Source: Lentibacillus amyloliquefaciens
GTDB lineage: Bacteria > Bacillota > Bacilli > Bacillales > Amphibacillaceae
Direction of reading: 5' to 3'
NCBI RefSeq assembly: GCF_001307805.1
Contig: NZ_CP013862.1
Coordinates: 1,860,001-1,924,000, forward strand
DNA: 64,000 nt
Positions within the stretch are counted from its first letter, which is position 1; every line of letters begins with the position of its first letter. A program made the translations under genes and the position numbers. The notes below the pieces were generated by a model. The model was not told the origin of the DNA and did no database searches. It worked only from the letters and a program-made list of their open reading frames with translations. Below, piece by piece: positions 21,629 to 63,175 of the stretch.

Positions 21629-21745
21629 ATAAAGTGAAACTCCATTCAGCGGAGCGTACTTTTCCGCTGAATGTTAGTTGAACAAAATCGGGCATTTAGG
21701 GTCAGTTAGCCGCCATAATTTGGCGGTTTTACTGACCCTTAGATC
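21629..21745 (+). repeat. Two-hairpin dispersed element, copy A
   Basis: Begins ATAAAGTGAAAC. Hairpin 1 is CATTCAGCGGA/TCCGCTGAATG (21643-21653, 21663-21673). The linker is TTAGTTGAACAAAATCGGGC. Hairpin 2 has outer stem GGGTCAGT/ACTGACCC (21699-21706, 21731-21738) and inner stem CCGCC/GGCGG. Five other copies lie in this window. It sits between a kinase-like gene and a GNAT gene. Confidence 0.8.
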
Positions 21746-21753
21746 AAAAGGCC

Positions 21754-22263
21754 CTAACTTATTCGCATAATCATATACTCTTCATCATAATACTTGCCGC
21801 CTAATTTGACAGCTCGTCTATGCCTGCCCAGGGGCACAAATCCCATCGCGTAAAAAAGACTTTCTGATGTGGTGCGCTTAATGATGACAGACAGAAAAAT
21901 TTGCTCCACACCCTCCAGCGATTTCGCATAATCAATAGCTGTGTGCATCAGTTTTTTGCCAGTTCCGCTTTCACGGTTATAAGGGGTGACATAAAGCCCC
22001 CATATGATCGTACGGTGAGCCGTTTTCTTTTTGGTTTCCTGTTCAAGTGTTACAACACCCACCAAATCATCCGCTTCAAAAGCACCGAATGTATGAATGT
22101 TTTCCGATTGAAATCTTACTTTATACTTTTCAGTGGCATCAGCCTGCACTTCATCATAACTTGCCGGAAATGCTGCAGGACTGTTGAGCAAGGCCTCGAG
22201 TCGCAAGTTCTTATATGTCGCTGCGTCATCAGCTTCCAGCAATCGTATGTCGATCATCATCAT
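21754..22263 (-). CDS. GNAT-family N-acetyltransferase
   Basis: A 169-aa acetyltransferase. Strand 4 and the CoA loop are IIWGLYVTPYNRESGTGKKL (R-x-x-G-x-G/A variant), followed by the helix MHTAIDYAKS and the C-terminal LFYAMGFVPLGRH with the usual Tyr. The acceptor is unknown and could be a small molecule or a protein N-terminus. Three Met codons follow GGATAAGGGG, so the exact start is uncertain by up to two codons. The gene is monocistronic. Confidence 0.83.
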   Translation of the reverse strand: MMMIDIRLLEADDAATYKNLRLEALLNSPAAFPASYDEVQADATEKYKVRFQSENIHTFGAFEADDLVGVVTLEQETKKKTAHRTIIWGLYVTPYNRESGTGKKLMHTAIDYAKSLEGVEQIFLSVIIKRTTSESLFYAMGFVPLGRHRRAVKLGGKYYDEEYMIMRIS

Positions 22264-22349
22264 CCCCTTATCCGATCATATTATTTAAGCTTGGACTTGC
22301 TATGATTATATGACCGACATGCCGGAATTCATGAATGAACATATGACGC

Positions 22350-22384
22350 AAAAACTGCTCCTTCCCTGAAGAATAGCAGTTTTT
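22350..22384 (-). terminator. Terminator downstream of the AI-2E family gene
   Basis: AAAAACTGCT and AGCAGTTTTT form a 10-bp stem around a 15-nt loop, 17 bp past the stop on the minus strand. Confidence 0.8.
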
Positions 22385-22400
22385 AAGCTAAGCCGAAATT

Positions 22401-23546
22401 TTATTTTTCTTCATAAGCCCCATATTCTTCGCCATAATAGCGGTTATAGCGCGTCTTAAACTTCTGAAAAAGAAATACGGTTATAACCTTCAGGATGGCA
22501 TAGCCCGGGATACCTAAAATAACACCGATGACACCGAACAAGTTCCCCGCAACCAACAGGACAATGATGATGGTAAGCGGATGAACCTGCATTGTTTTGC
22601 CCATGACGTTAGGTGATACAAAATTCCCTTCCAGAAACTGTACCGCGGCCCAGACAATCCCTAGCTTAAGGAGCATAACCGGTGAATCAACAATCGCAAT
22701 GATAATCGCCGGCGTAATCGCAATCGTCGGCCCGATATACGGCACGACACTGGTTACGGCAGCTATAATAGCAAGCGTAATCGCATAATCCAGACCGATG
22801 ATCAAGTAACCGATATACAACAGAATACCGATACACGAAGCAACGATGATCTGTCCCTGAATATAGGAACCGACCTGAACATCCATATTATGCAAGATTT
22901 GATTGACTTCTCCCCGATATTTAGGCGGCAGCAATTTCAGGCAAAATTGTTTAAAACGAACCCCGTCCTTTAACATAAAGAATAAAATAAACGGAAATGT
23001 GATGATGGCAACGACCGCACTTGTAATAGTACTGGCAACGTTTTGAACCCCTTCCATTGCACCTCCAAGACGTTCGGTAATCATGGTGGTCAAGTCGCTC
23101 AAATTCGAGGTGAACCAGACATAACCCTGTTCATAATAAGGGGCAAGAAAGGAATTTTGGATCCAATTCTCAATTCCTTCGCCCATTTGCTGCAAGTAAG
23201 TCGGAAATCGGGATGCCAAATCTTTCACCTGTGTCTCAATTGCCGGGGCCATCAGCAAAATCAGTCCGGTCAGCAGTCCGCTAATCCCCAGAATGATTAT
23301 AATAATGCCCCAGATGCGATGAATATGTAAACGTTCCAACAGATCAACAATCGGGTTCAATAAATAGAAGGCAACAAACGCCATAATAATTGGTGCTATT
23401 ACAGTAGAAATGAAAGTCAGAATCGGATTGAAGATGAATGATATTTGTGTATAAATAAAAATGGTAATTCCGATCAAAATTAATAGGATGAGACCGTAAA
23501 ACAGATCACGGCCGCCTAAAAATCTCATGAACCGGCTTATTTTCAT
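22401..23546 (-). CDS. AI-2E family transporter
   Basis: A 381-aa integral membrane protein of the PerM/AI-2E exporter family (PF01594), with paired helices at the N-terminus (LFYGLILLILIGITIFIYTQ) and the long conserved second half (GQIIVASCIGILLYIGYLII, TSVVPYIGPTIAITPAIIIA, QFLEGNFVSPNVMGKTMQVH). Family members export autoinducer-2 or act as Na+/H+ antiporters. In halotolerant Bacillaceae the latter is plausible. It is transcribed alone, with a terminator at 22350-22384. Confidence 0.88.
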   Translation of the reverse strand: MKISRFMRFLGGRDLFYGLILLILIGITIFIYTQISFIFNPILTFISTVIAPIIMAFVAFYLLNPIVDLLERLHIHRIWGIIIIILGISGLLTGLILLMAPAIETQVKDLASRFPTYLQQMGEGIENWIQNSFLAPYYEQGYVWFTSNLSDLTTMITERLGGAMEGVQNVASTITSAVVAIITFPFILFFMLKDGVRFKQFCLKLLPPKYRGEVNQILHNMDVQVGSYIQGQIIVASCIGILLYIGYLIIGLDYAITLAIIAAVTSVVPYIGPTIAITPAIIIAIVDSPVMLLKLGIVWAAVQFLEGNFVSPNVMGKTMQVHPLTIIIVLLVAGNLFGVIGVILGIPGYAILKVITVFLFQKFKTRYNRYYGEEYGAYEEK

Positions 23547-23648
23547 ATTACACGCGCCTCCTTGTTATACAAATTATAGATGATATCATGAAAAAATTCC
23601 ATAACGTTCTAAATAATTGTATGTACACCAGAAGCTTTCAACACAAAA

Positions 23649-23676
23649 AAACCAGTTCCCACAAGGAAACTGGTTT
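23649..23676 (-). terminator. Terminator of the 6S RNA gene
   Basis: Minus strand AAACCAGTT...AACTGGTTTTTTT. It lies just past the closing stem of the RNA at 23690-23876 and upstream of the transporter gene, so it ends the RNA rather than a protein-coding message. Confidence 0.8.
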
Positions 23677-23689
23677 ATCACTTTAAGAG

Positions 23690-23876
23690 TCAGCAGCCAC
23701 AAGTGCCGTATTTTTAAAATAAAAAGTTTTAAAACCACCACTTAGCCAAGTGGGTGTTTGCAGGAACCTTCCTGTCTTCCACTCAATGGAGGCACGACAT
23801 TTGAGTCCCGATGTAAAACTCCCTATTCATCTGTTAGAGGTTAAAACTTAATTTAAATACGAACATCGCAGCTTGT
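23690..23876 (-). ncRNA. ssrS: 6S RNA (SsrS) candidate
   Basis: A stretch of about 185 nt without a reading frame but with a complete RNA gene layout: promoter at 23883-23911, terminator at 23649-23676. The 5' part contains GATGTTCGT, the hallmark of 6S RNA 5' ends. The 5' segment ACAAG...CGTATTT pairs with the 3' segment AAATACG...CTTGT to close a long rod, and AAGTTTTAACC pairs with TTAAAACTT inside it. A small hairpin CCACTTGGCTAAGTGG lies on the 3' side of the central region. 6S RNA mimics an open promoter and holds sigma-A RNA polymerase in stationary phase. Assignment is by layout and recalled motifs, not by a covariance search. Confidence 0.75.
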
Positions 23877-23882
23877 ATTTTT

Positions 23883-23911
23883 ATAATACACCTTGACGTT
23901 ATGAAAATCAA
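23883..23911 (-). promoter_or_regulatory. Sigma-A promoter of the 6S RNA gene
   Basis: Minus strand TTGATT (23911-23906), 17-bp spacer and TATTAT (23888-23883), placing the transcription start near 23876. Confidence 0.7.
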
Positions 23912-23928
23912 TGGAAATATTTAACTTT

Positions 23929-24069
23929 TTAAGTTTTTGTATTTTTCTTTTTCGCCCGTTGCTCCAGCTGACTGTCAGGCTGCTGATCGGCTACATCTTC
24001 ACTGAGCCCCTGCTTATTAACACTGGATCTGGTTTGATTTTTTCGCCAGGTATTATTCTTATCAGCCAT
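23929..24069 (-). CDS. Small hydrophilic protein, 46 aa
   Basis: ATG at 24069 follows TATGGAGGTGTATCT, a strong ribosome site. The product starts MADKNNTWRKNQTRSSVNKQ and ends AKKKNTKT. It is highly charged, Gln/Asn-rich and without hydrophobic segments, in the style of small spore-associated or YuzL-like proteins of Bacillaceae. No family can be assigned with confidence. It lies between the 6S RNA and the acyl-CoA ligase gene. Confidence 0.6.
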   Translation of the reverse strand: MADKNNTWRKNQTRSSVNKQGLSEDVADQQPDSQLEQRAKKKNTKT

Positions 24070-24191
24070 AGATACACCTCCATAACCTAGTATTTAATGG
24101 ATGGAGATGTTTTATGCCAAATCCTTTTTGTAACCTTAACGAATTCCGTTCTGGCCCCAAACATCTTTCTACCCAAGATGAAAATCTGCTG

Positions 24192-25796
24192 TTAAGCTTC
24201 ATTCAGTGATTCATATTTATCGCGCAGTGTACGCTTCAGCACTTTACCGCTGGGGTTTTTCGGCATTTCGTCAGTGAAGTCGACATATTTTGGCACTTTA
24301 AATTTGGACAAACGTTCATCGCAAAATTCCATCACAGATTCTTTGGTCAGTTTGGCTCCTTCTTTCGGTACAATAATCGCCGTAACAGCTTCAATCCAAT
24401 AAGCATCCGGAATGCCAATGACAGCCACTTCAGCAACTCCGTCAATTTGATAAATGGTTTCCTCGACTTCACGGCTTGATACGTTCACCCCGCCTGTGTT
24501 GATCATATCCTTTTTGCGGTCAATAATCGTAACATATCCTTCTTCATCCATAACACCTAAGTCACCGCTATGGAACCACCCGTTTCTGAATACTTCTGCT
24601 GTTTTATCCGGATCATGCAAATAACCCTTCATCGTATGCGGAGTCCGGTGAACAATTTCTCCAACCTCACCACGCTCAACCTCATTGCTGTCATCATCCA
24701 CAATCTTAGTTTGCACATTAAGCGTCGGCACACCGGCAGAGCCAAGTTTACGAAGCTGATCTTCAGGCTGAAGTGCTGTTGCCAGCGGTGCCACTTCTGT
24801 CTGTCCGTAGAAATTCCAGAATTGTGCATTCGGCAGACGTTCTGCAAGCTCTTTTAAAACTTCACGCGGCATGATCGCCGCCCCGTAATAACATTTTTTC
24901 AGCGTCGATAAATCCCGCTTATCAAAATCCGGATGCCGCAGCAGGGCAATCCATACTGTAGGCGGAGCAAACAATTGAGTAGCGCCTTCTTTTTCAATCG
25001 TTTCCAAAATAACTTCCGGACTTGCAGCACCCAGAATAATTCCGCTCGCACCAAGATATATGCTCGGTCCCAAAAACACATGCAGCTGTGCACTGTGATA
25101 AAACGGCAAAGCATGGACAAGTACATCGCCCGCTGCCATTTTTCCATCCACAATACAGCTCACATATTCACTGACCAGACTTTTATGGGAAAGCATCACA
25201 CCTTTTGGCCGTGATTCCGTCCCGCTTGTATATAAAACGTGTGCGAGATCGTCATCATCAATTGACACCTCCACAGGATCAGCCGACCGCTCTTCACTTG
25301 CTGTAGACAGTGATATCCACTCCGCAAGCTCACCATCGTACGTGCCCAGTGTATCCATTAAATAACGCTGCCGAATCTCGAGGTTCTCTGCTGAATTATC
25401 CAAAGTCGCTGCATATTCCTCTGAGGCGATAAAAGCACTGACTTCCGCATGCTCGAGAATATACTGAACATCTTCAGTGGACAGCATATAATTAATCGGA
25501 ATCATGACTGCACCGATTCGTGCCAGTGCAAAATTAACAACGACAAAATCCAGGCTGTTCCTGGACATAACCGTTACCATGTCCCCTTTTTTCATGCCAT
25601 CTTGCAGAAATGTTCGTGCTGTCTGATTAACCACGTCATCAAGCTCCGCATAATTCAGCCGCTGCCCGTTGTATGCAAATGCAAATTTCTCAGGCATTCT
25701 GTCACGTGTCCGCGCAAGCAGATCCCCGAGTGTATTCCGTCTTGCCCTTTCCAGCTTCTTGCCAAGGTCATCCGATTCATTTGATTTGGTACGCAT
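24192..25796 (-). CDS. AMP-dependent acyl-CoA synthetase/ligase
   Basis: A 534-aa adenylate-forming enzyme that activates a carboxylic acid to acyl-AMP and then acyl-CoA. P-loop LYTSGTESRPKGVMLSHKS, A5-type YGQTEVAP, FHSGDLGVMDEEGYVTIIDR with the hinge DRKKDMI, and the C-terminal catalytic Lys in NPSGKVLKRTLRD. The ATG at 25796 follows GGGGAG and is chosen over an upstream TTG. The class is long- or medium-chain fatty-acyl-CoA ligase, and the chain length cannot be told. Single gene, no beta-oxidation partners nearby. Confidence 0.88.
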   Translation of the reverse strand: MRTKSNESDDLGKKLERARRNTLGDLLARTRDRMPEKFAFAYNGQRLNYAELDDVVNQTARTFLQDGMKKGDMVTVMSRNSLDFVVVNFALARIGAVMIPINYMLSTEDVQYILEHAEVSAFIASEEYAATLDNSAENLEIRQRYLMDTLGTYDGELAEWISLSTASEERSADPVEVSIDDDDLAHVLYTSGTESRPKGVMLSHKSLVSEYVSCIVDGKMAAGDVLVHALPFYHSAQLHVFLGPSIYLGASGIILGAASPEVILETIEKEGATQLFAPPTVWIALLRHPDFDKRDLSTLKKCYYGAAIMPREVLKELAERLPNAQFWNFYGQTEVAPLATALQPEDQLRKLGSAGVPTLNVQTKIVDDDSNEVERGEVGEIVHRTPHTMKGYLHDPDKTAEVFRNGWFHSGDLGVMDEEGYVTIIDRKKDMINTGGVNVSSREVEETIYQIDGVAEVAVIGIPDAYWIEAVTAIIVPKEGAKLTKESVMEFCDERLSKFKVPKYVDFTDEMPKNPSGKVLKRTLRDKYESLNEA

Positions 25797-25904
25797 AGCG
25801 CCACTCCCCGTCAAATTTTTTGATGACTTTTATACTGAATATTCTTTAGTTTAGTTTAATTCAGATAATATAATATAGCAAGTACAAATTAAGTCTTTTA
25901 AATC

Positions 25905-25945
25905 AAAAAAAGATGACGCTAAAAAAATAGCGCCACCCCTTTTTA
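25905..25945 (-). terminator. Terminator after sppA-yteJ
   Basis: GGCGCTA and TAGCGTC pair around AAAAAAA-rich loop sequence with A/T tracts on both sides. It touches the stop codon of the RDD gene. Confidence 0.65.
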
Positions 25946-26395
25946 TCTGTCAAACACAACCCGTGTGCTGCCAAATATATCATGGAGTCCTTGTTTTTGA
26001 CTTCCGAAAGCTGCAAACAAATAAAGTAAATTTGTGAACCAGAAGACACGGTGAATGAACCGTCCGACCACTTCCCTGAATATCAGGTCACTCCACTCCA
26101 GCGGTTTCATGTCTTCACGTACGACCCGCAAGCCGAAAATCATTTTGCCCAATGTCTTTCCGAAGAATTTTGTCATCAGCAAAAAGTACAGATACAACAC
26201 AATCGCTCCAACAATGCCAGCCAGCGTCCAAAATCCGATATCAATCGGGTCGAAAAAATTAAATGGACTGAGAAGGATGCCGTTGATACTGAACACAATG
26301 ATTAAATCGACCAGGTATGCCCAAAAACGCATCCAAAATCCGGCATAACGTTGTGGCATCGTATTTTCAGAATAGGTTTCCAGATTTTCATTCAT
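25943..26395 (-). CDS. yteJ: RDD-family membrane protein (YteJ-like)
   Basis: A 150-aa protein with the RDD domain: YAGFWMRFWAYLVDLIIVFS at the N-terminus holds the family Arg and Asp-Asp positions, followed by two more membrane segments and MIFGLRVVRED. It follows sppA by 12 bp, exactly the sppA-yteJ order of B. subtilis, where YteJ is reported to modulate SppA in lantibiotic resistance. That link is of interest with a lan cluster 10 kb away. Confidence 0.87.
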   Translation of the reverse strand: MNENLETYSENTMPQRYAGFWMRFWAYLVDLIIVFSINGILLSPFNFFDPIDIGFWTLAGIVGAIVLYLYFLLMTKFFGKTLGKMIFGLRVVREDMKPLEWSDLIFREVVGRFIHRVFWFTNLLYLFAAFGSQKQGLHDIFGSTRVVFDR

Positions 26396-26407
26396 GACGG
26401 CACCCCC

Positions 26408-27403
26408 TTATTTCGAATATAAATACATGGCACGCGGTCCATCAGATTGCTGAATCAGCTCCTGAATCGCCGTCAGTTTAGCATCTTCACCCTGGAACAT
26501 GGTTTGCACCTTGCCGTTAATATATGTGTTCCAACCGTAACCATTGTTATATTTCACAACACGCGCGTTAGACCAATCTAAGTCTTCCTGCATCATGGCA
26601 GCTGTATCTTCCAGGTCACCCAAGCCATCAACGAGTCCATTATCTGCTGCTTGTTGCCCGGTGTACACACGCCCATCACCCAGTTCACGAACTGTGGACT
26701 CAGACATGTCACGGCCTTCGACAATCACTTGCACGAAATCATCATACATACCATCAATCATCGTCTGTAGAATATCACGCTCTTCATCCGTCATTTCTCT
26801 TGTTGCAGACATGATATCTTTAAACTCGCCGCTTTTAATCGTATTCACATCTACCCCAAGCTGATCGGCAAGTTCTGTGACGTTATAACTTTGCATAATA
26901 ACACCGATTGAACCGGTCAATGTTGCCTGATGAGCTACGATTTTATCTGCAGGGGCTGCAACGTAATAGCCGCCGGAAGCTGCTGTGTTGCCCATTGAAA
27001 CATAAACTGGTTTATTATGTTCTTCTTGTATTTCGACAATTTTATCGTGAATTTCATCGCTTTCCACAACACCCCCGCCAGGTGTATTCACACGCAAAAT
27101 AATACCGGAGACAGAACGATCTTCACCAACATGCTCTAACTTTTTTAAAAAACGGTCATGGTTGTAACCGCCGGAATTCAATAACGACGATGTCGAAACG
27201 TCCTGAATCATGCCATCGAGTTCCACAACGGCGATTTTATTCCCGGTGCCCTCCTGAATAACTTCTTGCTGATATTGCTGGTCTGACATGGCAAACAATG
27301 ATTCCAAGTCAGTCGAAAACACGCTGCTCATGAATCTGAAGCCGAGTGAGGCGACCAGTAAGAAAACTGCAATTCCTAATGCGAGCCAACGTTTCTTATT
27401 CAA
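26408..27403 (-). CDS. sppA: Signal peptide peptidase SppA
   Basis: A 331-aa membrane-anchored serine protease that degrades cleaved signal peptides. N-terminal anchor RWLALGIAVFLLVASLGFRF. The catalytic Ser is in NTAASGGYYVAAPADKIVA and the Lys in GEFKDIMSATREMT, giving the Ser-Lys dyad of the Bacillus enzyme. A TTG at 27403 with GGAGG 9 nt upstream gives LNKKRW, matching the usual SppA start, and the longer frame has no ribosome site. Co-transcribed with yteJ. In B. subtilis SppA also contributes to lantibiotic tolerance. Confidence 0.92.
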   Translation of the reverse strand: MNKKRWLALGIAVFLLVASLGFRFMSSVFSTDLESLFAMSDQQYQQEVIQEGTGNKIAVVELDGMIQDVSTSSLLNSGGYNHDRFLKKLEHVGEDRSVSGIILRVNTPGGGVVESDEIHDKIVEIQEEHNKPVYVSMGNTAASGGYYVAAPADKIVAHQATLTGSIGVIMQSYNVTELADQLGVDVNTIKSGEFKDIMSATREMTDEERDILQTMIDGMYDDFVQVIVEGRDMSESTVRELGDGRVYTGQQAADNGLVDGLGDLEDTAAMMQEDLDWSNARVVKYNNGYGWNTYINGKVQTMFQGEDAKLTAIQELIQQSDGPRAMYLYSK

Positions 27404-27497
27404 TCCGATGTCCTCCATTCTGTTGCAAATTATGTATATAGTCATGATACTACATTTTTTGTCAAAACTTAATTAGAAAGTGATTCAAAACCCTATA

Positions 27498-27720
27498 TTA
27501 AAGGTCCAGCTTATTCAAAACTTCCTTTAAACTGGTCAGATCAGCCTCTGTCAGGGTTACGCCTTTCCCCATTTTTTCCTTGTCAGGCGCCCAATCCCTA
27601 ATGTCATATTTAGGATCTCGATCATTCCAGCTAATCAGATTCAATTCTTTTGTCCATCCTTTAGGTGATTCGGGATAATACTGCAACATGTTCAATGATG
27701 TTGTACTTAATATCAGCCAT
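27498..27720 (-). pseudogene. ydbC: YdbC/PC4-like ssDNA-binding protein, frameshifted
   Basis: The proper start is ATG at 27720 behind GGAGGAATTGAC, giving MADIKYNIIEHVAVLS. A run GGG at 27672-27674 (CCC on the coding strand) has one base too many. Without it the frame joins ESPKGWTKELNLISWN and ends at 27498 as a clean 73-aa protein. GWTKE.N..S(W/F)N, KYDIRDWAPDKEKMGKGVTL matches YdbC, the bacterial PC4-fold protein that binds single-stranded DNA. A longer frame through the region misreads the first 20 codons. Confidence 0.75.
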
Positions 27721-27821
27721 GTCAATTCCTCCATCCCTTAAGTTTTAGATCGATTTAGTCAAGTTTTATGTCTTATAGGGCGCAACCCCTCTAACACTAA
27801 AAAAATTTGCAAAAACGCCAA

Positions 27822-31727: not shown

Positions 31728-31882
31728 ATAAAGTGAATCTTCAATCAGTGGGGGTTTTCTCTCTCCCCACTGATTGTTAGATGAACGAATCGGACATTTA
31801 CTGGCAGCCATCCCCCCACCTATTCTTCATCGTATACGCGAACATTTGAGGTGGGGGTCTTACTGCCAGTTACATGCGGGAT
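31728..31882 (+). repeat. Two-hairpin dispersed element, copy B
   Basis: Hairpin 1 is CAATCAGTGGGG/CCCCACTGATTG (31742-31753, 31765-31776). The linker is TTAGATGAACGAATCGGACA. Hairpin 2 has outer stem ACTGGCAG/CTGCCAGT (31800-31807, 31863-31870) and an inner stem CCCCCACCT/AGGTGGGGG that differs from all other copies. The tail is TTACATGCGGGAT. It fills most of the gap between the stress protein and the NRDE gene. Confidence 0.8.
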
Positions 31883-31949
31883 CAAACAAGTCACTTGATT
31901 GGAAGCTGACACCTTTGCAAGCTATAATGAAGAAAAAGGACTGAAAATC

Positions 31950-48883: not shown

Positions 48884-49143
48884 CGCATTTAAACGGTCAA
48901 TCCGGCATCAAGGATACTATTCACCCTTCCAATTAAATTTTAGCAAAATTTGAAAGTTAATAAAGCCGTTCATTTAATTTTCTTTGCTTCTCTGTTAAAG
49001 ATCTTATATAAGAAGCATCCATGGAAAATCTTTACAACGAAAGCACAATTATGATTCACGTAAACTCCATAATCGCCCCTCCATCGGCTAAGGAGCTTAT
49101 ATATGGTACGATAAAAGGAATAAAGGAACAAAGGAGGTCTATC

Positions 49144-49821
49144 ATGCTTACCATTCTTATCGTTGATGATGATCCGCATATTCGTGAGCTGCTACGTTTT
49201 TATTTACAAAAAGAAAGCTATAAAACAATCGAAGCTGCAGATGGAGAAAAGGCGCAGCAGCTGTTAGAGCAGCATCACATTCATCTGGCGCTTGTTGATA
49301 TTATGATGCCGAATGTGGATGGCTATGAGCTTTGCAGGGAAATCCGGAGCTACTATGATATTCCTGTCCTTATGATAACAGCTAAGGGAGAAATGAAGGA
49401 TAAAGAAACGGCTTTTAAAGCAGGAACCGATGACTATATTACAAAGCCATTTGAACCGAAAGAAGTTCTTTTCCGAATCAAAGCATTGCTTCGGAGGTTT
49501 CGGATGATAAATGAAGAGAATATCCATATTGGAAGTACCACCATAAATCGAAAAAGCTATGAAGTCCAATCTAACGGCAAAACAATTATTTTACCATTAA
49601 AAGAGTTTGAATTACTGGCACAACTGGCTAGTTATCCAAACCGGATATTCTCCCGCGAACAGATAATTGAACTGGTCTGGGGCAATGACTTTGAAGGGAA
49701 TGACCGGACAGTGGACGTACATATTAAACGATTGCGTGAAAGATTCACAGAAGATAGCCATGGCTTTTCAATTCAGACCGTCAGAGGATTGGGATATAAG
49801 CTGACAGTCCACAGCGAATGA
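49144..49821 (+). CDS. hssR: Heme-response regulator HssR
   Basis: A 225-aa OmpR-type regulator. Receiver with DDD (8-10), phospho-acceptor Asp52 in LALVDIMMPNVDG and TDDYITKPFEPKEVLFRIKA, then a winged helix with FEGNDRTVDVHIKRLRERF. The match to HssR is detailed (TDDY.TKPFE, YEG.ERTVDVHIKRLR). ATG at 49144 follows GGAGG, so the longer upstream frame is discarded. The four-gene order hssR-hssS-hrtB-hrtA has the lengths of the staphylococcal genes. Confidence 0.87.
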   Translation: MLTILIVDDDPHIRELLRFYLQKESYKTIEAADGEKAQQLLEQHHIHLALVDIMMPNVDGYELCREIRSYYDIPVLMITAKGEMKDKETAFKAGTDDYITKPFEPKEVLFRIKALLRRFRMINEENIHIGSTTINRKSYEVQSNGKTIILPLKEFELLAQLASYPNRIFSREQIIELVWGNDFEGNDRTVDVHIKRLRERFTEDSHGFSIQTVRGLGYKLTVHSE

Positions 49822-49847
49822 GGAATGATTCGTTCATTTGCTGTTCA

Positions 49848-49974
49848 TTAAATGAATCTTCAATCAGTGGGGGGGTTCTTTCTCCCCCACTGATTGTTAG
49901 ATGAACGAATCGGACATTTAGGGACAGTTAACCGCCGTCCCTGGGCGGATTACTGTCCCTTACATGCGGGATAA
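49848..49974 (+). repeat. Two-hairpin dispersed element, copy C
   Basis: Hairpin 1 is CAATCAGTGGGGG/CCCCCACTGATTG (49861-49873, 49884-49896). The linker TTAGATGAACGAATCGGACA is identical to copy B. Hairpin 2 is GGGACAGT/ACTGTCCC (49921-49928, 49952-49959) with inner CCGCC/GGCGG. The tail is TTACATGCGGGATAAA. It lies between hssR and hssS, inside what should be an operon. Confidence 0.82.
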
Positions 49975-50019
49975 AACTTTTGTACAATGAGTCGGACTTA
50001 GACATTGGAGGCCACCACT

Positions 50020-51396
50020 ATGCGGACACTTTATGTAAGAATTATTGTCACAACAATGGCGATTATGATTGCAAGTGCCATCATCGCTTTTGCGGTGTCG
50101 AATATTTATTATCAGTTTTATTTAAAGCCTGAAAATGACCAAAAAGTGACACATATTACGGAAAACATCGTAGCTACCTATAAGCAAAACAATAATCAGT
50201 CAGTACCCAACTTTTTAACATCGATGGCTGATCTTGGCTATAAATTTCATTTGGTTGATCAACATGGACAAGCGCAGACATTTGGAGAATCGTTTACTTC
50301 AACGGATATGGAAGAAAGTGATGTCGAAGCCGTTTTAAGTGGTGAAACCTATCATGGTATTGCCAATTACCCCTGGAGGCCATTTATAACTGGATTTTTT
50401 GACAATGATTTGGCAAATACAATAGGGGTGCCAATCCAGGTAGATGGGCAGACGTATGCCTTATTTGTTCGTCCTGACACGACACAGCAATTTGGAGAAA
50501 TGCGGATATTCCTCGCAGTTCTGCTTGTATTAACATTGCTTTTCAGTTTTTTAATGGTATTAATCAGCACAAGATTTGTTGTCAAACCAATCAAAAAACT
50601 GACAGAGGCGACAAAGAAGATAGCTGCAGGTAATTATCACCTGAAACTCGATGTGAACAGGCATGATGAAATAGGCCGTCTTGCAAATGATTTTACAAAA
50701 ATGAGTGACAGCCTGGAAAGTACAGAGGAAAAGAGGCAGGAATTTGTCTCAAGTGTCTCCCATGAAATCCAGTCACCACTTACTTCGATTCAAGGATTCT
50801 CCCGAACACTAAGAGAGGAAGACCTGACCGAAGAAGAACGCTCACATTATTTGACGATTATTGAAAAGGAAAGTAAACGATTATCCCTATTAAGTAAACA
50901 ACTGCTTACCCTCTCTTCTTTGGACAGCGAAGCAGATGTGGAGATGGTTCCCTATGATGTGGCGGATCAGTTAAAAGAAGTCGTTCATGCAACTGAATGG
51001 CAATGGCATGAAAAGGAGATCGTCATTGAAATGAATTTATCCCCAACGACAATTGCAGGGGATCCGAAATTACTTCACCAGGTTTGGATGAATTTAGTGG
51101 AAAATGCCATTCGTTATACGGACCCCGGTGGAACAATTACGATTATAACCTTTCGTGATAAAACAGGGACACAGGTCATTGTAGAAGATACGGGAAACGG
51201 CATTGAAAAGGAAAATCTCTCCCAGCTATTTGACAGGTTTTATAAAGTGGATAAAGCAAGAACCGGAACGAAGAACAGTACAGGGCTCGGCCTTTCGATT
51301 GTGAAAAAAATCATCGAATTACATCACGGCACAATCATGGTGGACAGCGATCCTGGAAAAGGTTCAACTTTCACTGTCACCCTGCCAAATAAGTAA
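50020..51396 (+). CDS. hssS: Heme-sensing histidine kinase HssS
   Basis: A 458-aa sensor kinase. Two membrane helices (IIVTTMAIMIASAIIAFAVS and IFLAVLLVLTLLFSFLMVLI) frame an extracellular domain of about 130 residues. HAMP (RFVVKPIKKLTEATKKIAAG), then the H-box SSVSHEIQSPLTSIQGFSRT, N-box MNLVENAIRYTD and G-boxes DTGNGIEKE and GLGLSIVKKI. ATG at 50020 follows GGAGG. Length equals staphylococcal HssS. It should phosphorylate HssR upon heme stress. Confidence 0.87.
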   Translation: MRTLYVRIIVTTMAIMIASAIIAFAVSNIYYQFYLKPENDQKVTHITENIVATYKQNNNQSVPNFLTSMADLGYKFHLVDQHGQAQTFGESFTSTDMEESDVEAVLSGETYHGIANYPWRPFITGFFDNDLANTIGVPIQVDGQTYALFVRPDTTQQFGEMRIFLAVLLVLTLLFSFLMVLISTRFVVKPIKKLTEATKKIAAGNYHLKLDVNRHDEIGRLANDFTKMSDSLESTEEKRQEFVSSVSHEIQSPLTSIQGFSRTLREEDLTEEERSHYLTIIEKESKRLSLLSKQLLTLSSLDSEADVEMVPYDVADQLKEVVHATEWQWHEKEIVIEMNLSPTTIAGDPKLLHQVWMNLVENAIRYTDPGGTITIITFRDKTGTQVIVEDTGNGIEKENLSQLFDRFYKVDKARTGTKNSTGLGLSIVKKIIELHHGTIMVDSDPGKGSTFTVTLPNK

Positions 51397-56450: not shown

Positions 56451-56467
56451 CATTTATCGTTATTCTG

Positions 56468-56902
56468 TTATTTAATTACTAACACAGGACAAACTGCCTC
56501 CTGCACAACTCTGTTGCTGACACTGCCGAGAAATATTTTCTTGACACCGCCAAGCCCTCTGCTTCCAACAATGATTAAATCAATATCATGGTTCTCAGCG
56601 TATTCACATATTTTCGTTCCTTCATTCCGGTGGGTGTCTTCAATGATAATATCTGTCGTGACGTTTATCCCGTCACCTTCGAATTCTTTTTTGATTTCTT
56701 CCATGTCCGGCCGAAGATTTTCAGCAAGCTCCCACTGAATGTTTTTTGCTATCGTTATATTTGTGCTTGGCCCGTATTGGGACACAACCGATATTACGTG
56801 CACCTCTGTTTTCGGAACCCCGGACGCCTGTAACCTGGCCTCCTGAAGCGCTTCTTTACTCAAAACCGATCCATCATAAGCCACTAGAATTTTACGTTTC
56901 AT
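56468..56902 (-). CDS. Universal stress protein UspA
   Basis: A 144-aa alpha/beta protein that binds ATP in the UspA manner: ILVAYDGSVLSKEALQEA at the N-terminus and the phosphate loop GSRGLGGVKKIFLGSVSNRV (G-x2-G-x9-G-S) at the C-terminus. ATG at 56902 after GGGGAGTG. The role in stress survival is known only in general terms. Monocistronic. Confidence 0.92.
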   Translation of the reverse strand: MKRKILVAYDGSVLSKEALQEARLQASGVPKTEVHVISVVSQYGPSTNITIAKNIQWELAENLRPDMEEIKKEFEGDGINVTTDIIIEDTHRNEGTKICEYAENHDIDLIIVGSRGLGGVKKIFLGSVSNRVVQEAVCPVLVIK

Positions 56903-57122
56903 AATAGGCACTCCCCTTCCTGAGATTCAGGAAACAGTAAACCTTTCCCTATTTATATTATACCATTGTTCAGCATCGTATTGTGTCGTGTTTTCAAACT
57001 TTATGTGAATTTTTCTAAATATTGAAACGGATCGAATTGAATCTATAGCTGCTGTTTACACCGCTCAACAGTCGGGAATAATCAACATTAGCTTTTATAT
57101 TGAAAAGGAGAGGAGCAATAAC

Positions 57123-58526
57123 GTGACACCCAATCAAATAGGTTTCGCATTATTATATCTGGGATTATTTCTAATTATCGGCAAATCGATCAGAATACGC
57201 GTGAAATGGATGCAGAACTTGTTCCTGCCCTCATCTGTCATCGGCGGGTTTCTTGCTCTGATTTTGGGTCCGCAAGTACTCGGCAGCATCATGGAAAATG
57301 TCACAGGTGAGGATTCATTCTGGGCAACAGGGCTACTTACCCCTGAAATTATGAATGTATGGACCCCGCTTGCAGGATTAATGATCAATGTTGTCTTTGC
57401 CACACTATTTTTGGGAACCGTCCTCCCTAGTCTGAAAAAGGTCTGGAACATTGGCGGACCACAGCTTGCATTTGGCTGGACGCTTGGCTGGGGGCAATAT
57501 GTTTTTGGTCTGCTGCTGGCTATCCTGATTCTGGTACCGTTCTATGACATGCCGCCGTTTGTCGGGGCCCTGATTGAAATAGGCTTTGAAGGCGGGCACG
57601 GTACAGCAGCCGGACTTCAGGGAACATTTGAAGATCTTGGATTTGCCGAGGCATATGACCTGGCTATTGGCCTTGCGACTGTTGGTATTTTATCAGGTGT
57701 CATTATTGGGATTGCCGCCATCAACTGGGCGGTGCGAAAGAATCATGCAAAAACAATCAGCGATGTTAAGGATGCATCTGAACTGAAAAGAGCTGGCATT
57801 GTGGAGTTTGAAAATCGTGATGCAGCAGCGAAAATGACAGTGCGGCCGGAATCAATTGAACCGCTCTCTCTGCATTTTGCGATGATTGGAATCGCTATTC
57901 TGGTTGGTTATGTATTGCTTGAGGGCATAACCTGGCTGGAACAAGCGATCATCGGTTCTGATTTTATGACCTATGTCCCGCTGTTCCCGCTTGCCATGAT
58001 TGGCGGAATAATTGTGCAACTGATTGCCTCCAAGATTGATAAAGCGGATATACTTGACCGACAAATGATCATGCGGATACAAGGTTTTTCACTTGATGTA
58101 CTGATATTATCTGCGATTGCCACTGTTTCCCTTGATGTTATCGGACAGTACCTTGTGCCATTCCTGCTGCTTTCACTTGTTGGTATCATCTGGAACGTGC
58201 TTGGTCTCTTCTTCATTGGACCACGAATGATACCATCATATTGGTTTGAAAGAGGTATTGGTGATTTCGGCCAGTCAATGGGGATTACAGCAACGGGTCT
58301 GTTATTAATGCGTGTGGCCGATCCGGAAATGAAATCGCCGGCTTATGAAGGTTTCGGCTATAAACAGCTTGTCTTTGAACCATTTCTGGGCGGCGGTCTT
58401 GTCACCGCACTGTCTGCACCGCTAGTCTTTCAATTTGGCCCGATTCCCTTCCTTATCTTCGCAACCGTGATGCTGGCGATCGGCTTACTTGTCGGCTTGT
58501 TTTATTTCGGGAGGATGAAAAGCTGA
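57123..58526 (+). CDS. gltS: Sodium/glutamate symporter GltS
   Basis: A 467-aa member of the ESS family with ten or more hydrophobic segments. Two re-entrant-loop-like motifs are visible: GFEGGHGTAAGLQGTFEDLG in the first half and IGDFGQSMGITATGLLLMRV in the second. GTG start at 57123 behind AAAAGGAGAGGAG. It imports glutamate with Na+, useful as nutrient and osmolyte. Ends with a good terminator at 58543-58582. Confidence 0.88.
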   Translation: MTPNQIGFALLYLGLFLIIGKSIRIRVKWMQNLFLPSSVIGGFLALILGPQVLGSIMENVTGEDSFWATGLLTPEIMNVWTPLAGLMINVVFATLFLGTVLPSLKKVWNIGGPQLAFGWTLGWGQYVFGLLLAILILVPFYDMPPFVGALIEIGFEGGHGTAAGLQGTFEDLGFAEAYDLAIGLATVGILSGVIIGIAAINWAVRKNHAKTISDVKDASELKRAGIVEFENRDAAAKMTVRPESIEPLSLHFAMIGIAILVGYVLLEGITWLEQAIIGSDFMTYVPLFPLAMIGGIIVQLIASKIDKADILDRQMIMRIQGFSLDVLILSAIATVSLDVIGQYLVPFLLLSLVGIIWNVLGLFFIGPRMIPSYWFERGIGDFGQSMGITATGLLLMRVADPEMKSPAYEGFGYKQLVFEPFLGGGLVTALSAPLVFQFGPIPFLIFATVMLAIGLLVGLFYFGRMKS

Positions 58527-58542
58527 ATCATCAATCATTAAT

Positions 58543-58582
58543 AAAAGCATGGCACTTTAAGTTCAGTGCCATGCTTTTTTTC
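58543..58582 (+). terminator. Terminator after gltS
   Basis: AAAGCATGGCACT and AGTGCCATGCTTT form a 13-bp stem followed by TTTT. It abuts repeat copy D. Confidence 0.9.
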
Positions 58583-58717
58583 CCCGCATGTAATGGTCAG
58601 TAATCCGCCAAAAAACGGCGGCCAACTGACCTTAAATGTCCGATTCGGTTCAACTAACATTCTACAGGGAAGAACACCCTGTAGAATGAAGTTTCACTTT
58701 ACCCCGCATGTAATGGT
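58582..58717 (-). repeat. Two-hairpin dispersed element, copy D, with 16-bp end duplication
   Basis: On the minus strand: TAAAGTGAAAC, hairpin 1 CATTCTACAGGG/CCCTGTAGAATG, linker TTAGTTGAACCGAATCGGAC, hairpin 2 GGTCAG/CTGACC with inner CCGCC/GGCGG. The sequence CCCCGCATGTAATGGT occurs at 58582-58597 and again at 58702-58717, exactly 120 bp apart. Confidence 0.82.
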
Positions 58718-58725
58718 TAACTTTT

Positions 58726-60357
58726 CTATTTTCTCAGTTGTTTTCCCTTCTCTATTTTTTCCCTGATCTCTTTGCCCTGTTCTCTGCCTTTATTTTCTTG
58801 CTTGTCTGGTCGAACATTGTAGACGTATGCTCTATCGTTATCCATCATTTTCTTGGCAGCATAAATCAGCAGAAACTGTATAGCGATGATCGGTATGCCC
58901 ATAAGACCTGAAAGAACTTCCAACGGTGCCAGACCGCCTATTCGCATCAAAAGAAGTGCCAGGACTGTAATGATCGCCGCCACGATAATTCTCAACGCTC
59001 TTGATGGTTCTGCCTGACTCATGTTCTCAGTACCTGTGTAAGAAGCAATGGTATATGTTGTCGAATCCAATGTTGTTGTTAAGAAGATGGTTGCTATGAT
59101 GATAAAGAGGACCAGCACAATATTGGATAACGGTAATGAGCTTAAAATGGCCGGTATAGCTGCCATCGCGTCTTCTTGGACAATATCCAGCACAGGAACT
59201 TCCCCTGTGAGATACCTTTGTACGCCAAGACCGCCTAATACCCCGGTTGCGACCCAGGAAAGGAGTGTCGGTGCAAGTAAATACGTCAGAATCATTTCCT
59301 TGATCGTCCGGCCTTTTGATATTTTGGCGGCAAACACACTGTGCAGCATCGCCCATGTGGCACTGTAAGCGAACCAGAAGACGGTGTTGCTGACAATGTA
59401 TGTGGACCCTTCCATGTTGGTCGAATCCGTATAAATGGATATATCAATATAATTAGCCAGTAAGTGACCAACACTGTCGGTAAAAAAGTTCAAAATGAAA
59501 ATCCCGGGTCCGATAATCATGACGAACAAAGCAAACGCGGCAGCGAGATACATATTCAGGGTACTTAAACGTTTAATTCCCTTTTCAATGCCCAAATAGG
59601 CACTTATGGAGAATAAAAACACCCAAACGATCGTCACAATCAGGGTTAAGGTAAACGACTGTCCAATATTCAACAGTTCGGCCAGATTATAAGTGACAAT
59701 CGGAGCACCCAAACCTAACGTAACCGCTGCACCTGAAAGGATACTGACGAGAAAGACGATGTCCAGTACTTTACCGCCGAAGCCATCCACGAACTTATCG
59801 CCAAAAACATCGCGGCATGCTTCAGATATCCGCATGAACGGCTTTTTGCGAACGTGCAAAATATAACCCATGGCAGGCGCCGCCATAACAAAGATAGCAA
59901 ACACTTGAACACTCCACATAAACATGCTGTAGGCATTTCCCCACAGCAATGCTTCTGCAGATCCTGCTTCAGCGCCAAACGGCGGATTTACCGCCACGTT
60001 CCCCCACTCGGTCATACCGGTACGCATGATGGTTGAGCCAAGCCCCATGGCAATCAGGATCGAAGCATATTCAAACAAATTAAAGCGCGGTTTCTCATTC
60101 GGGTCGCCCAGGACGACATCGCCGTACTTGGAAAATGACAAGTATAACCCGGCCGCAACAAGAATGATTGCGTACCATATGTAACCCCAGGTAAACATGT
60201 TTACAATCTGATCAAAAATGGCGTTTAAGAGTTCCAGCGATTGTTCCTCATACATCGCAAAAGGAATACTAATAAGAATCATGATAATTAATGATGGAGC
60301 AAAAATACGATGGTCGATTAACCTTCTGCTAAGCCCCTTTTTGCTATTCCCTTTCAT
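58726..60357 (-). CDS. BCCT-family transporter (betaine/choline/carnitine type)
   Basis: A 543-aa secondary transporter with twelve hydrophobic segments. The membrane core matches BCCT proteins (FAPSLIIMILISIPFAMYEE, LSFSKYGDVVLGDPNEKPRF, GMGLGSTIMRTGMTEWG, FLTTTLDSTTYTIASYT). The aromatic WWxxW substrate motif of OpuD is replaced by FAYSATWAMLHSV, so the substrate may not be glycine betaine. Start ATG at 60357 after GGAGG. Uptake of compatible solutes fits a halotolerant host. Confidence 0.83.
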   Translation of the reverse strand: MKGNSKKGLSRRLIDHRIFAPSLIIMILISIPFAMYEEQSLELLNAIFDQIVNMFTWGYIWYAIILVAAGLYLSFSKYGDVVLGDPNEKPRFNLFEYASILIAMGLGSTIMRTGMTEWGNVAVNPPFGAEAGSAEALLWGNAYSMFMWSVQVFAIFVMAAPAMGYILHVRKKPFMRISEACRDVFGDKFVDGFGGKVLDIVFLVSILSGAAVTLGLGAPIVTYNLAELLNIGQSFTLTLIVTIVWVFLFSISAYLGIEKGIKRLSTLNMYLAAAFALFVMIIGPGIFILNFFTDSVGHLLANYIDISIYTDSTNMEGSTYIVSNTVFWFAYSATWAMLHSVFAAKISKGRTIKEMILTYLLAPTLLSWVATGVLGGLGVQRYLTGEVPVLDIVQEDAMAAIPAILSSLPLSNIVLVLFIIIATIFLTTTLDSTTYTIASYTGTENMSQAEPSRALRIIVAAIITVLALLLMRIGGLAPLEVLSGLMGIPIIAIQFLLIYAAKKMMDNDRAYVYNVRPDKQENKGREQGKEIREKIEKGKQLRK

Positions 60358-60742
60358 GATGAAACCTCCAATTCCCGGTTCAAAGTTAAGGTCAGATTTA
60401 TCTCTGAACCTGACCTTCAACCCTCCCTTAAAAATAGGTAAATAAGTATATTGTACCTATTACCACATGACTTTATTTATAAACTTCGGGACAAGAGGTA
60501 CGGAATCATTGTCCCCCGCAGCATCTAACATGCAATGCTATTTTTAAAAAAGTTTATGGCTATGCAGACCTCGAGCGAAAGATAAACTGGCCAGGTCCCG
60601 TACTTACGACAAGTATTTTTCAGCTTAAACCTTCATGATACACCGGCCTCAAATCTTCCATTATAACAAAACTGGGAAACATTGGGATTTTATTGCCGAC
60701 ATTCCGGCAGATTGCTAAAATGAAGTCAGTGAGGTGACGCAG

Positions 60743-61603
60743 ATGACTTTTCATACGCCAAACCAGCCGGTCGTTTTCATCACCGGTGCATCAGGTGGAT
60801 TCGGCTTGCTTACGAGTCTCGCATGTGCTGAAGCCGGGTATTTAGTGGTAGCATCGATGCGGGATTTATCAAAGAGTGAGAATCTGATGGAACAAGCACG
60901 GAAAAAAGGTGTAGAAGCAAGCATCGCCTGTATCAGGCTGGATGTAACCAACCAAGAGGACATTGATTCGGCAGTGCCGGAAGTCATTAACCGCTTTGAC
61001 GCCATTGATGTGCTAATCAACAATGCCGGCTATGCTGCGGGTGGGTTTACGGAAGAAGTACCGCTTGAAGCTTGGCGTGAGCAATTTGAAACGAATCTTT
61101 TTGGGTTGATTGCCGTAACGAAAGCCGTCCTTCCCCATATGAGAAAAAGACAGGACGGTACCATCATTAATCTTTCCAGCATCAGCGGAAGAATGGCCCT
61201 TCCCGGTCTCGGACCATATGCGGCATCAAAGTTTGCTGTTGAAGGATTTAGTGAAGCGCTGAGACTCGAAATGCTACCGCATGGTGTACATGTCGTGCTG
61301 GTTGAACCGGGTTCTTATCAAACAGATATCTGGTCAAAAGGGATGAGTGATTTCAATGTTGATTTAGAATCCCCATATAGCGAGGAAACCGAAACTTTAA
61401 TGAAAATGGTCAGCCACATCGCTAAAACAGCCGATGATCCGGAAGAAGTAACGCGGTTGATTGTCAAAGTCACTCAAGAAAATAATCCCAACCTTCGTTA
61501 TCCCGTTGGTAAAAACGTCAAAACCATGACCCGGTTGAAAACCCTGTTGCCATGGAGATGGCTGGAACATATGATTTTGAAAAAGATCAACCCGCGTAAA
61601 TAG
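60743..61603 (+). CDS. Short-chain dehydrogenase/reductase
   Basis: A 286-aa classical SDR. Cofactor motif VFITGASGGFGLLTSLA (TGxxxGxG), NAG motif VLINNAGYAAGG, Ser in NLSSISGRMALPG and the YxxxK pair in GPYAASKFAVEGFSEAL. ATG at 60743 follows GAGGTGACGCAG, favoured over the GTG three codons earlier. The substrate is open. C-terminal MTRLKTLLPWRWLEHMI is amphipathic. The 385 bp before the gene hold no other feature. Confidence 0.87.
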   Translation: MTFHTPNQPVVFITGASGGFGLLTSLACAEAGYLVVASMRDLSKSENLMEQARKKGVEASIACIRLDVTNQEDIDSAVPEVINRFDAIDVLINNAGYAAGGFTEEVPLEAWREQFETNLFGLIAVTKAVLPHMRKRQDGTIINLSSISGRMALPGLGPYAASKFAVEGFSEALRLEMLPHGVHVVLVEPGSYQTDIWSKGMSDFNVDLESPYSEETETLMKMVSHIAKTADDPEEVTRLIVKVTQENNPNLRYPVGKNVKTMTRLKTLLPWRWLEHMILKKINPRK

Positions 61604-61814
61604 AAAGCATTTTGTGCACATTATTCCAACCTTAATACAATCACATCAAAGATACGTGAGATCTGTTTTTCAAAACCGATTTTGATATATGGAACTAAAA
61701 GCTTTTGCAAGGAAGAAATGCAACAGCTAATTTTTAAATCGACCCAGACGCGGAGCCATTTTATGATGACTTTTCATTCCGCTTATGATTAGTTCACCAC
61801 ATCAGCAAGGGTTC

Positions 61815-61895
61815 TTATTTCTTTTGATTTGACATGACAGCAGCCACTAATGATCCAAACGTAATCATTATAACCAACGTTTCAAATACTGTCAT
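61815..61895 (-). CDS. Holin-like type I toxin peptide, 26 aa
   Basis: Encodes MTVFETLVIMITFGSLVAAV followed by MSNQKK. A short N-terminal polar start, one membrane helix and a basic tail are the signature of the TxpA/BsrG/Fst-like 'putative holin-like toxin' family (M.vfeal.lMi.F..li..l). AAGGATG lies upstream of the ATG at 61895. Such peptides depolarise or perturb the membrane and are silenced by an antisense RNA transcribed over the gene's 3' part, and that RNA is not identified here. Confidence 0.75.
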   Translation of the reverse strand: MTVFETLVIMITFGSLVAAVMSNQKK

Positions 61896-62165
61896 ATAAC
61901 GTCATCCTTCCCTTTTGAATCAGGAACTTATTCGACCCATCTCTGCAAACACGTTATTCCCATGAATTGAACTGCAACGTTCCGAGATGGAATATCGTTT
62001 GCCATTATTTCAAAATACCGGATTAAGCCGCCTAGTCTATATGCCATAATGTTTTCGATATGTTGTCTTCATTTTTGTTATGTTTAAGGATATGTGAAGC
62101 GAGGCTTGTCCTATGACACCTGATGACGCAAAATATTGGAAAAATTGACTTTTACCATTTGTTTT

Positions 62166-62292
62166 GGATAAAGTGAAACTTCATTCAGCGGAATGCTTTT
62201 CCCGCTGAATGTTAGTTGAACAGAATCGGACATTTAGGAACAGTTAACCGCCGTTTCTGGGCGGATTACTGTCCATTACATGTGGGATAAAG
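62166..62292 (+). repeat. Two-hairpin dispersed element, copy E
   Basis: Hairpin 1 CATTCAGCGG/CCGCTGAATG. Linker TTAGTTGAACAGAATCGGAC. Hairpin 2 GGAACAGT/ACTGTCC (one mismatch) with CCGCC/GGCGG. GGATAAAG starts the element (62166) and recurs at its end (62285), 119 bp apart. Nothing else is seen between the toxin gene and the HTH gene. Confidence 0.82.
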
Positions 62293-62334
62293 AAACCACA
62301 TTTTGACATCAATAAAAGAAGATTAAGCAACAAC

Positions 62335-62751
62335 TTAATCTCCTTCCAGATACAGACACTGATGCAGTGGCGGACTTCCAAGCACTATCCAAATTTTAAT
62401 AAACAATTCCAGTCTGGGCTGGGAAACGTTATTGAAAATTTTACTAATATTAGGCGGCTTCATGTCTAATTGATCGGCAATATCCTTGATATAAATATCT
62501 TTCTGTTTCGCTATCTCTTTAAACCGATTTTTTATAACAGGCTGACCGCCACTTTCGATCAGCGGGTTAATCGGCTTGAAATGATTGATTTGTTCCATTT
62601 TATCGATTATACAGCCAACCACAAAATCTTCAATCTGATAATTATCATCCCGATTTTTATCACGGTGGCGGTTAATTAAATTTTCAAGTTCAGTCAGTTC
62701 TTTCAACTGATTATAAGTATCCTCTTTAAGCCGAATGGTTAGTTCTTTCAT
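62335..62751 (-). CDS. HTH-domain protein, XRE-like
   Basis: A 138-aa protein. The N-terminus MKELTIRLKEDTYNQLKEL looks like a ribbon-helix-helix or coiled segment. The C-terminal half has a helix-turn-helix (IYIKDIADQLDMKPPNISKI, FNNVSQPRLELFIKIWIVLG). Probably a DNA-binding regulator of accessory DNA. GAGGTGAT precedes the ATG at 62751. No partner gene is evident, although a 30-codon frame is divergently placed. Confidence 0.72.
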   Translation of the reverse strand: MKELTIRLKEDTYNQLKELTELENLINRHRDKNRDDNYQIEDFVVGCIIDKMEQINHFKPINPLIESGGQPVIKNRFKEIAKQKDIYIKDIADQLDMKPPNISKIFNNVSQPRLELFIKIWIVLGSPPLHQCLYLEGD

Positions 62752-62801
62752 GTATAAATCACCTCAGAATTGGACAAGGTATAAGCGAAAGGATGATGAA
62801 A

Positions 62802-62894
62802 ATGATGAACGTTAACGCAGTAAACCATAACGATAAAGAAGAAGATGTCATCGAAACGCTGCACGAAACATTTGACAAAGGCAAAAATGGTTAA
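62802..62894 (+). CDS. Small hypothetical protein, 30 aa
   Basis: MMNVNAVNHNDKEEDVIETL followed by HETFDKGKNG, behind GCGAAAGGATG. It is acidic with one amphipathic helix (EEDVIETLHETFDKG). It starts 50 bp from the divergent HTH gene and could be its partner. No homologue is recognised. The call rests on ribosome site and composition only. Confidence 0.35.
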   Translation: MMNVNAVNHNDKEEDVIETLHETFDKGKNG

Positions 62895-62967
62895 TTTAAA
62901 CAAGTACAATGAGGTATACAACCCTGTCTCTTAAAGACATATTCAAGATATTAACTAAAAATACCTT

Positions 62968-63126
62968 TTAGATTTTTTGTATGCTTTGGTATAACTTCTT
63001 CTTTTTTGAAAAGGCGTGCGGTGTCGTCGCATAGACATGCTCTTCAATCAGCTCTGGGTAAGATAGTTTCAGCAACCATGGGGTATACAAAAAAGATGTA
63101 CCCTGATGGATACACCACTTCGGAAG
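62968..63126 (-). pseudogene. Unidentified gene remnant
   Basis: A frame reads PKWCIHQGTSFLYTPWLLKL and then SYPELIEEHVYATTPHAFSK to a stop at 62968. Its protein-like composition has no start of its own, and repeat copy F cuts into its 5' side. It may be the tail of a transposase or other lost gene. The family was not recognised. Confidence 0.3.
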
Positions 63127-63175
63127 ATAAAGTGAATCTTCAATCAGTGGGGGTCCTTTCTTTCCCCACTGATTG
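63127..63175 (-). repeat. Two-hairpin dispersed element, copy F (first hairpin only)
   Basis: ATAAAGTGAATCTTCAATCA then hairpin CAATCAGTGGGG/CCCCACTGATTG (63141-63152, 63164-63175), ending exactly at the stop codon of the reductase gene. The linker and hairpin 2 are absent. Here hairpin 1 would act as the 3' end of the reductase message. Confidence 0.75.

Follow-up and report, generated by a model that had tools for sequence, protein, structure and literature searches.

A gene-free, two-hairpin family of mobile DNA with ATAAA ends in Lentibacillus amyloliquefaciens and other Bacilli

What kind of sequence is a repeat whose hairpin stems change in both arms at once while the bases between the hairpins stay nearly fixed? 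The question is raised by a 64,000-nucleotide stretch of the Lentibacillus amyloliquefaciens chromosome (contig NZ_CP013862.1, positions 1,860,001 to 1,924,000; hereafter the window), in which a reading made from the sequence alone had named six copies of a two-hairpin element and had taken the paired changes as the mark of an RNA under structural selection. We find that the element behaves as a gene-free, two-hairpin family of mobile DNA. Its fixed target ends, the empty sites in relatives, a replication-strand bias, and the lack of a clear orientation toward genes all fit DNA hairpins of a mobile element, and the RNA interpretation is not supported. The reading that we prefer, at a probability of about one-half, is a non-autonomous mobile DNA element resembling a miniature IS200/IS605 single-strand transposon, similar to the palindrome-associated transposable elements (PATEs).

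The full unit reads ATAAA-GTGA-AACT/ATCT-T-(hairpin 1)-TT-AGTT/AGAT-GAAC-N-AATCGG..-TTTA-(hairpin 2)-TTA..GCGGG-ATAAA, and the terminal ATAAA on each side is part of the unit. On the TTTAT strand, opposite the ATAAAGTGA strand, the order is TTTAT / CCCGC..TAA - hairpin 2 - linker - CTAA - hairpin 1 - ..CTTTAT /, with a break drawn after each TTTAT. The hairpins are subterminal, one per element end, and hairpin 2 comes in two subtypes, giving a short (∼125 bp) or a long (∼160 bp) element. Terminal inverted repeats are absent, the left tip being GTGAAACTT or GTGAATCTT and the right tip, read inwards, CCCGC; in this the element differs from a classical miniature inverted-repeat transposable element (MITE).

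The ends are fixed. Among 63 parsed copies, chosen by their similar ends, exact ATAAA was found on the left of 56, on the right of 54, and on both sides of 49, and the flanks outside ATAAA had no strong base preference in the 54 copies that remained once nested and tandem ones were removed. Tandem units have one ATAAA in common: this was seen in 7 abutting pairs among the 148 matches in the L. amyloliquefaciens genome (G000; see below) and between neighboring units of a six-unit array in another genome (G029). We compared three sites with 17 loci of relatives and found two exact empty sites. Between purF and purM, G000 has CTG-ATAAA-element-ATAAA and G002 a single CTG-ATAAA; at the L029 site, the flanks joined without the element find an exact match in G008, running through GGAAAATTT-ATAAA-TACTG. 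An older element-like sequence lies at or near the same purF-purM place in G006 and G004, and for the window site at 49848 the intergenic region of G007 was too diverged for the junction to be placed. Neighboring genes showed no clear orientation toward the element (same versus opposite strand, 35/27 upstream and 29/32 downstream). In 8 of the 63 copies the stop TAA of an upstream same-strand open reading frame (ORF), as mechanically called, falls within the left ATAAA, which is expected if insertions persist where they are harmless.

These ends and the single-ATAAA empty sites show insertion next to a pentanucleotide, a pattern indistinguishable from a 5-bp target duplication. They would therefore be produced equally by a MITE-like or bcr1-like element that moves by double-strand site-specific recombination, or by a conventional transposase that duplicates the 5-bp ATAAA. 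The closest known system, bcr1 of the Bacillus cereus group, lends this alternative some weight, being described both as a MITE (PMC3733652) and as moving in a possibly recombination-like way that is tied to repeats of TTTAT (PMC6542083). The lack of terminal inverted repeats argues against it, and we regard it as possible without being probable.

The family is dispersed and far larger than the six copies first named. The linker pattern occurs at 53 exact sites in the genome (0 with a reversed control) and at 73 sites when up to 3 mismatches are allowed (1 with the control). R1, a covariance model made from 54 of this genome's copies, gave at least 148 matches across the 3.86-Mb chromosome (E < 0.01; 74 per strand); 150 candidates were scored in this search, so that 148 is a lower bound. 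With the L. amyloliquefaciens genome counted, 34 of 60 genomes had R1 matches. A cross-genus covariance model (R2), with 10 candidates scored per genome and counts that are accordingly lower bounds, matched at least 104 of 299 genomes and at least 58 of 116 genera in a sample of the order, and at least 41 of 299 genomes in a sample of the class, 32 of these outside the order. Plasmids carry the element in Pseudalkalibacillus hwajinpoensis (100% of the query covered) and Cytobacillus oceanisediminis (88%), and partial matches were found in Peribacillus (half elements) and in one Klebsiella grimontii plasmid record. A search of phage records gave no match; one viral contig holds an element fragment. 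In the openly accessible literature, the element's sequence words turned up only in unrelated papers, and no paper on such a family was found. The K. grimontii match (L118, plasmid pNY3A, ∼2501-2593) has ATAAA at both ends and mostly lacks hairpin 2; it could represent Bacilli DNA in an enterobacterial plasmid or in its assembly.

All six places named in the window do hold the element, as five near-complete copies and one half copy, each recovered by R1. The coordinates below are those of the model matches, converted from genome coordinates.

21629..21749, plus strand: copy 1, short subtype with hairpin 2 GGGTCAGT/ACTGACCC; right tail lost.
31728..31885, plus strand: copy 2, long subtype CTGGCAG/CTGCCAG; complete, with ends ATAAA...ATCAA.
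49847..49975, plus strand: copy 3, short subtype; flanked by genes for a response regulator (49021-49821) and a histidine kinase (50005-51396).
58578..58702, minus strand: copy 4, with stems that diverge from the others (CATTCTACAGGG; GGTCAGT); its neighboring genes are convergent.
62168..62291, plus strand: copy 5, short subtype.
63127..63193, plus strand: half copy, reduced to hairpin 1 and the left ATAAA end.

The tail had been described as nearly constant, which does not hold for the copy at 21629, since it lacks the TTACATGCGGGATAAA tail. The left end of copy 4 bears a tail remnant from another unit.

The copies are not placed evenly with respect to replication. We drew replichores from the GC skew of sampled stretches, which put the origin of G000 at ∼2.7 Mb and its terminus at ∼0.87 Mb. 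The ATAAAGTGA strand is in the lagging sense in 102 of the 148 copies, or in 94 of 140 when tandems are counted once (P = 6e-5; 91 to 95 with the limits shifted by 150 kb). All gene-orientation classes in G000 lean the same way (13:9, 10:2, 9:6, and 6:4; total, 38/59; P = 0.036). Among the matches listed for three further genomes, the best 150 of 233, the lagging sense accounts for 29/32 in G274, 45/58 in G113, and 31/44 in G008, so that the four genomes range from 69 to 91% of counted copies; the G113 figure excludes a 220-bp class of matches and becomes 53/74 with those rows. This 220-bp class (for example, C1:571188-571409) may be a separate family. Because the ATAAAGTGA strand is mostly in the lagging sense, the TTTAT strand is mostly the lagging-strand template, from which IS200/IS605 transposases are described to excise and into which they insert (PMC6006769). 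Neither this bias, seen in four genomes, nor the covariation of the hairpins would be expected from a double-strand reaction.

The hairpins themselves were examined at two scales. Within the window, the four copies other than the one at 21629 and the half copy folded with z scores of -6.7, -6.6, -4.7, and -5.8 against dinucleotide shuffles. Across genera, we aligned 33 elements from many genera (alignment A3) and wrote the structure by hand from the same alignment. Both sides changed in 29 of the 39 pairs, against a mean of 14.6 after shuffling and 12 to 23 when the structure was slid; 92.0% of the cells paired (shuffled, 79.7%; slid, 44.5% or less), and the covariation score was 0.333 (shuffled, 0.127; slid, 0.081 or less), with the slid comparison tilting toward the structure because the structure was derived from this alignment. 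The outer helix of hairpin 1, four bases long, switches between AACT/AGTT and ATCT/AGAT, and the foot of hairpin 2 appears as CGGGCAG, CTGGCAG, GCGTCCG, and CTGGCTG, among others, with matching partners. The internal loops TTA/TTA and GA/GA are conserved. The earlier observation that the stems change in both arms is thus borne out, and the changes remain paired in the larger alignment that had been proposed as a check.

Strong covariation, stable folds, and conserved internal loops are also what would be seen in a structured RNA, a small RNA or a cis-acting part of an untranslated region, that happens to be a repeat and is kept by selection on its fold. Transcription of repeats of this general kind has been described, bcr1 to bcr18 together being transcribed in 84/165 and 62/155 copies in two B. 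cereus strains (PMC3446304). Wobble pairs bear on this alternative in both directions. In a set of 66 elements (A3 plus 33 elements added by MAFFT without a refit to the structure), all 39 pairs together gave 2274 Watson-Crick cells out of 2508, with 69 G.T (2.8%) and 45 A.C. With the upper stem of hairpin 2 excluded, the remaining 27 pairs gave 1666/1775 Watson-Crick, 32 G.T, and 18 A.C (P = 0.065); in that upper stem, wobbles were commoner (30 G.T and 24 A.C in 535 cells). The excess of G.T over A.C leans to the ATAAAGTGA strand, as a selected RNA would have it. So few wobble pairs would, however, be unusual for such an RNA. None of 4227 Rfam models matched at the places of the element. The earlier reading had recognized no named RNA or MITE, but the element does have described look-alikes, among them bcr1, which shares the TTTAT motif.

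Some of the pairing may also have an origin other than selection. In one element (L018), the right arm is the exact complement of its own left arm at a place where non-nested relatives differ. In addition, hairpin 2 of five copies contains a nested second insert (ATGAAAATCCA..TTTCATCCTAATTGGTGAATCTTTGATTCATGG; ∼55-60 bp, or longer). It occupies the right arm in L020, L032 (second copy; 4249 region), L033, and L040, whereas L051 has it in the left arm and in the opposite orientation, as if hairpin 2 had been flipped. L048 was flagged by script as a further case like L018 and was dismissed by eye. The patterns in L018 and L051 suggest arm-to-arm copying or hairpin inversion, either of which would itself yield paired changes without selection on an RNA and could account for part of the pairing. 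Together with the absence of a clear orientation toward flanking genes, and with the lack of the element, in some relatives, at both of the sites that could be resolved there, this makes a selected RNA improbable in our view.

The two hairpin feet are alike on one strand. Reading along the TTTAT strand, hairpin 1 is preceded by CTAA in 66/66 elements and hairpin 2 by NTAA in 57/66; on the opposite strand the feet have unlike bases, mostly ACTT and TTTA. IS200/IS605 transposases are described to locate the cleavage site via a guide just 5' of the subterminal hairpin (PMC6006769), and the TAA before each hairpin is a candidate for such a guide, as it could pair with the TTA of TTTAT. If the element is indeed a miniature single-strand transposon, its TTTAT strand would fold while exposed as the lagging-strand template; an enzyme acting in trans would then cut out the folded single strand and join it 3' of another TTTAT, so that each end carries a TTTAT. 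Like PATEs and further IS200/IS605 derivatives that consist of ends only, it has two subterminal hairpins without inverted terminal repeats, insertion beside a fixed pentanucleotide, and lagging-strand bias, and the TAA before each hairpin would correspond to their guide bases. In contrast to them, our element has longer, multi-part hairpins, has no autonomous relative with the same ends that we could find, and occurs in some genomes in which Y1 has no match. Integron attC sites are likewise folded single strands recognized by structure, with variable stem sequences and conserved unpaired bases; the element would resemble them in this and differs in carrying no gene cassette and in its 5-bp ATAAA target.

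Several observations weigh against this preferred reading. The Y1 transposase domain (Y1_Tnp, PF01797) has no match at E 0.001 in the L. amyloliquefaciens genome, nor in the element-bearing genomes G003, G025, G245, and G089. An autonomous copy, one that shares the element's ends and encodes a Y1 transposase, was found neither in L. amyloliquefaciens nor at 48 Y1 loci of relatives, and the two R2 matches that lie near those loci do not resemble the ends of a Y1 element. The 16 weaker R2 matches of the 220-bp class in G113 show no strand bias (8/16). The GA/GA tandem that is conserved next to hairpin 1 suits the ATAAAGTGA strand better, and the wobble lean described above likewise favors that strand over the TTTAT strand. 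Lagging-strand bias, moreover, is not constant in the IS605 family, since one survey in another bacterium saw no such preference (10/22 on the leading strand; PMC7290912). Because of the wobble count over all 39 pairs, we have rated the single-strand transposon lower, and both double-strand movement and a selected RNA slightly higher.

The search for a driver gave the following picture. PF01797 matched in 51 of the 60 genomes (L. amyloliquefaciens being one of the 60) and in 20 of 22 chosen element-bearing genomes, some of these matches being weak or partial, and the presence of Y1 did not visibly track that of the element when the tables were compared by eye. R2 applied to the 48 Y1 loci (flanks of up to 1.5 kb) gave just the two matches mentioned, of which one is a deletion derivative and the other is weak; element tips sought around the same loci revealed no convincing insertion sequence. 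The mover may have been lost from the L. amyloliquefaciens genome, or may be an enzyme of another kind than Y1; the missing Y1 match there also favors double-strand movement. As no partner was found, we do not file the element under IS200/IS605.

Repetitive extragenic palindromic (REP) repeats spread by REP-associated tyrosine transposases (RAYT, TnpA_REP) resemble the element, as do BIME and REPIN, in being intergenic, high-copy hairpins, and RAYT-like Y1 proteins (∼180-310 amino acids, so called from length and score) occur in many relatives. The REP repeats of RAYT are described as having a GT[AG]G foot (PMC6006769), whereas the hairpin foot here is CTAA or NTAA, without GTAG or GTGG, the ATAAA ends are fixed, and each unit has two unlike hairpins. 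A different repeated motif, GGTGCCTGTCAC, accompanies the RAYT-like loci L279 and L280, the element was seen near L280 in truncated form only, and the L. amyloliquefaciens genome has no Y1 match; we therefore consider a REP origin very unlikely. The GGTGCCTGTCAC motif is perhaps the RAYT's own REP.

How does the family relate to bcr1? Going by the title of a 2004 paper by Okstad, bcr1 is reportedly specific to the B. cereus group. It is described as ∼150 bp long (147 and 167 bp in PMC2267715), present in tens to more than 100 copies, gene-free, and foldable, with a mobility tied to at least one TTTAT motif (PMC6542083). The element is like it in size, copy number, and the TTTAT motif at its ends, a comparison made by description and not by sequence. 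It is unlike bcr1 in not being restricted to one group, occurring in at least 58 of the 116 genera of the order sample, in Pseudalkalibacillus and Cytobacillus and, as half elements, in Peribacillus; B. cereus group records were not among the matches of the plasmid and phage searches. For these two reasons, the reported group specificity and the comparison by description, we do not file the element as bcr1. A broader proposal, which we hold to be unlikely though worth stating, is that two structure-recognized hairpins mobilized at TTTAT by an enzyme other than Y1/HUH, host-encoded or from an unrecognized gene, form a distinct class of single-strand mobile DNA across Bacilli, with bcr1 as its B. 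cereus branch. In either case, a family of bcr1-like anatomy with empty sites and strand bias makes the question of bcr1-type mobility directly testable, and it is a caution that paired changes in the hairpins of intergenic repeats in bacteria may be a signature of DNA mobility instead of evidence for a functional RNA.

Two further repeated stem-loop families, Bhal-1 of B. halodurans and Bant-1 of B. anthracis, are described at 72 to 74 bp (PMC2267715), the size of one half of the element, and could be related to it; this comparison, too, is by description only. Apart from the element, the window holds a group II intron at 80-1881 (minus strand), with a reverse transcriptase/maturase ORF (RVT_1, GIIM) and a D1-D4-6 RNA match at 1645-1881; a sub-threshold match to the BsrG RNA family at 61816-61926 (minus strand; 28 bits against a gathering score of 55); and a 6S RNA gene at 23690-23877 (minus strand; Rfam RF00013, 62 bits).

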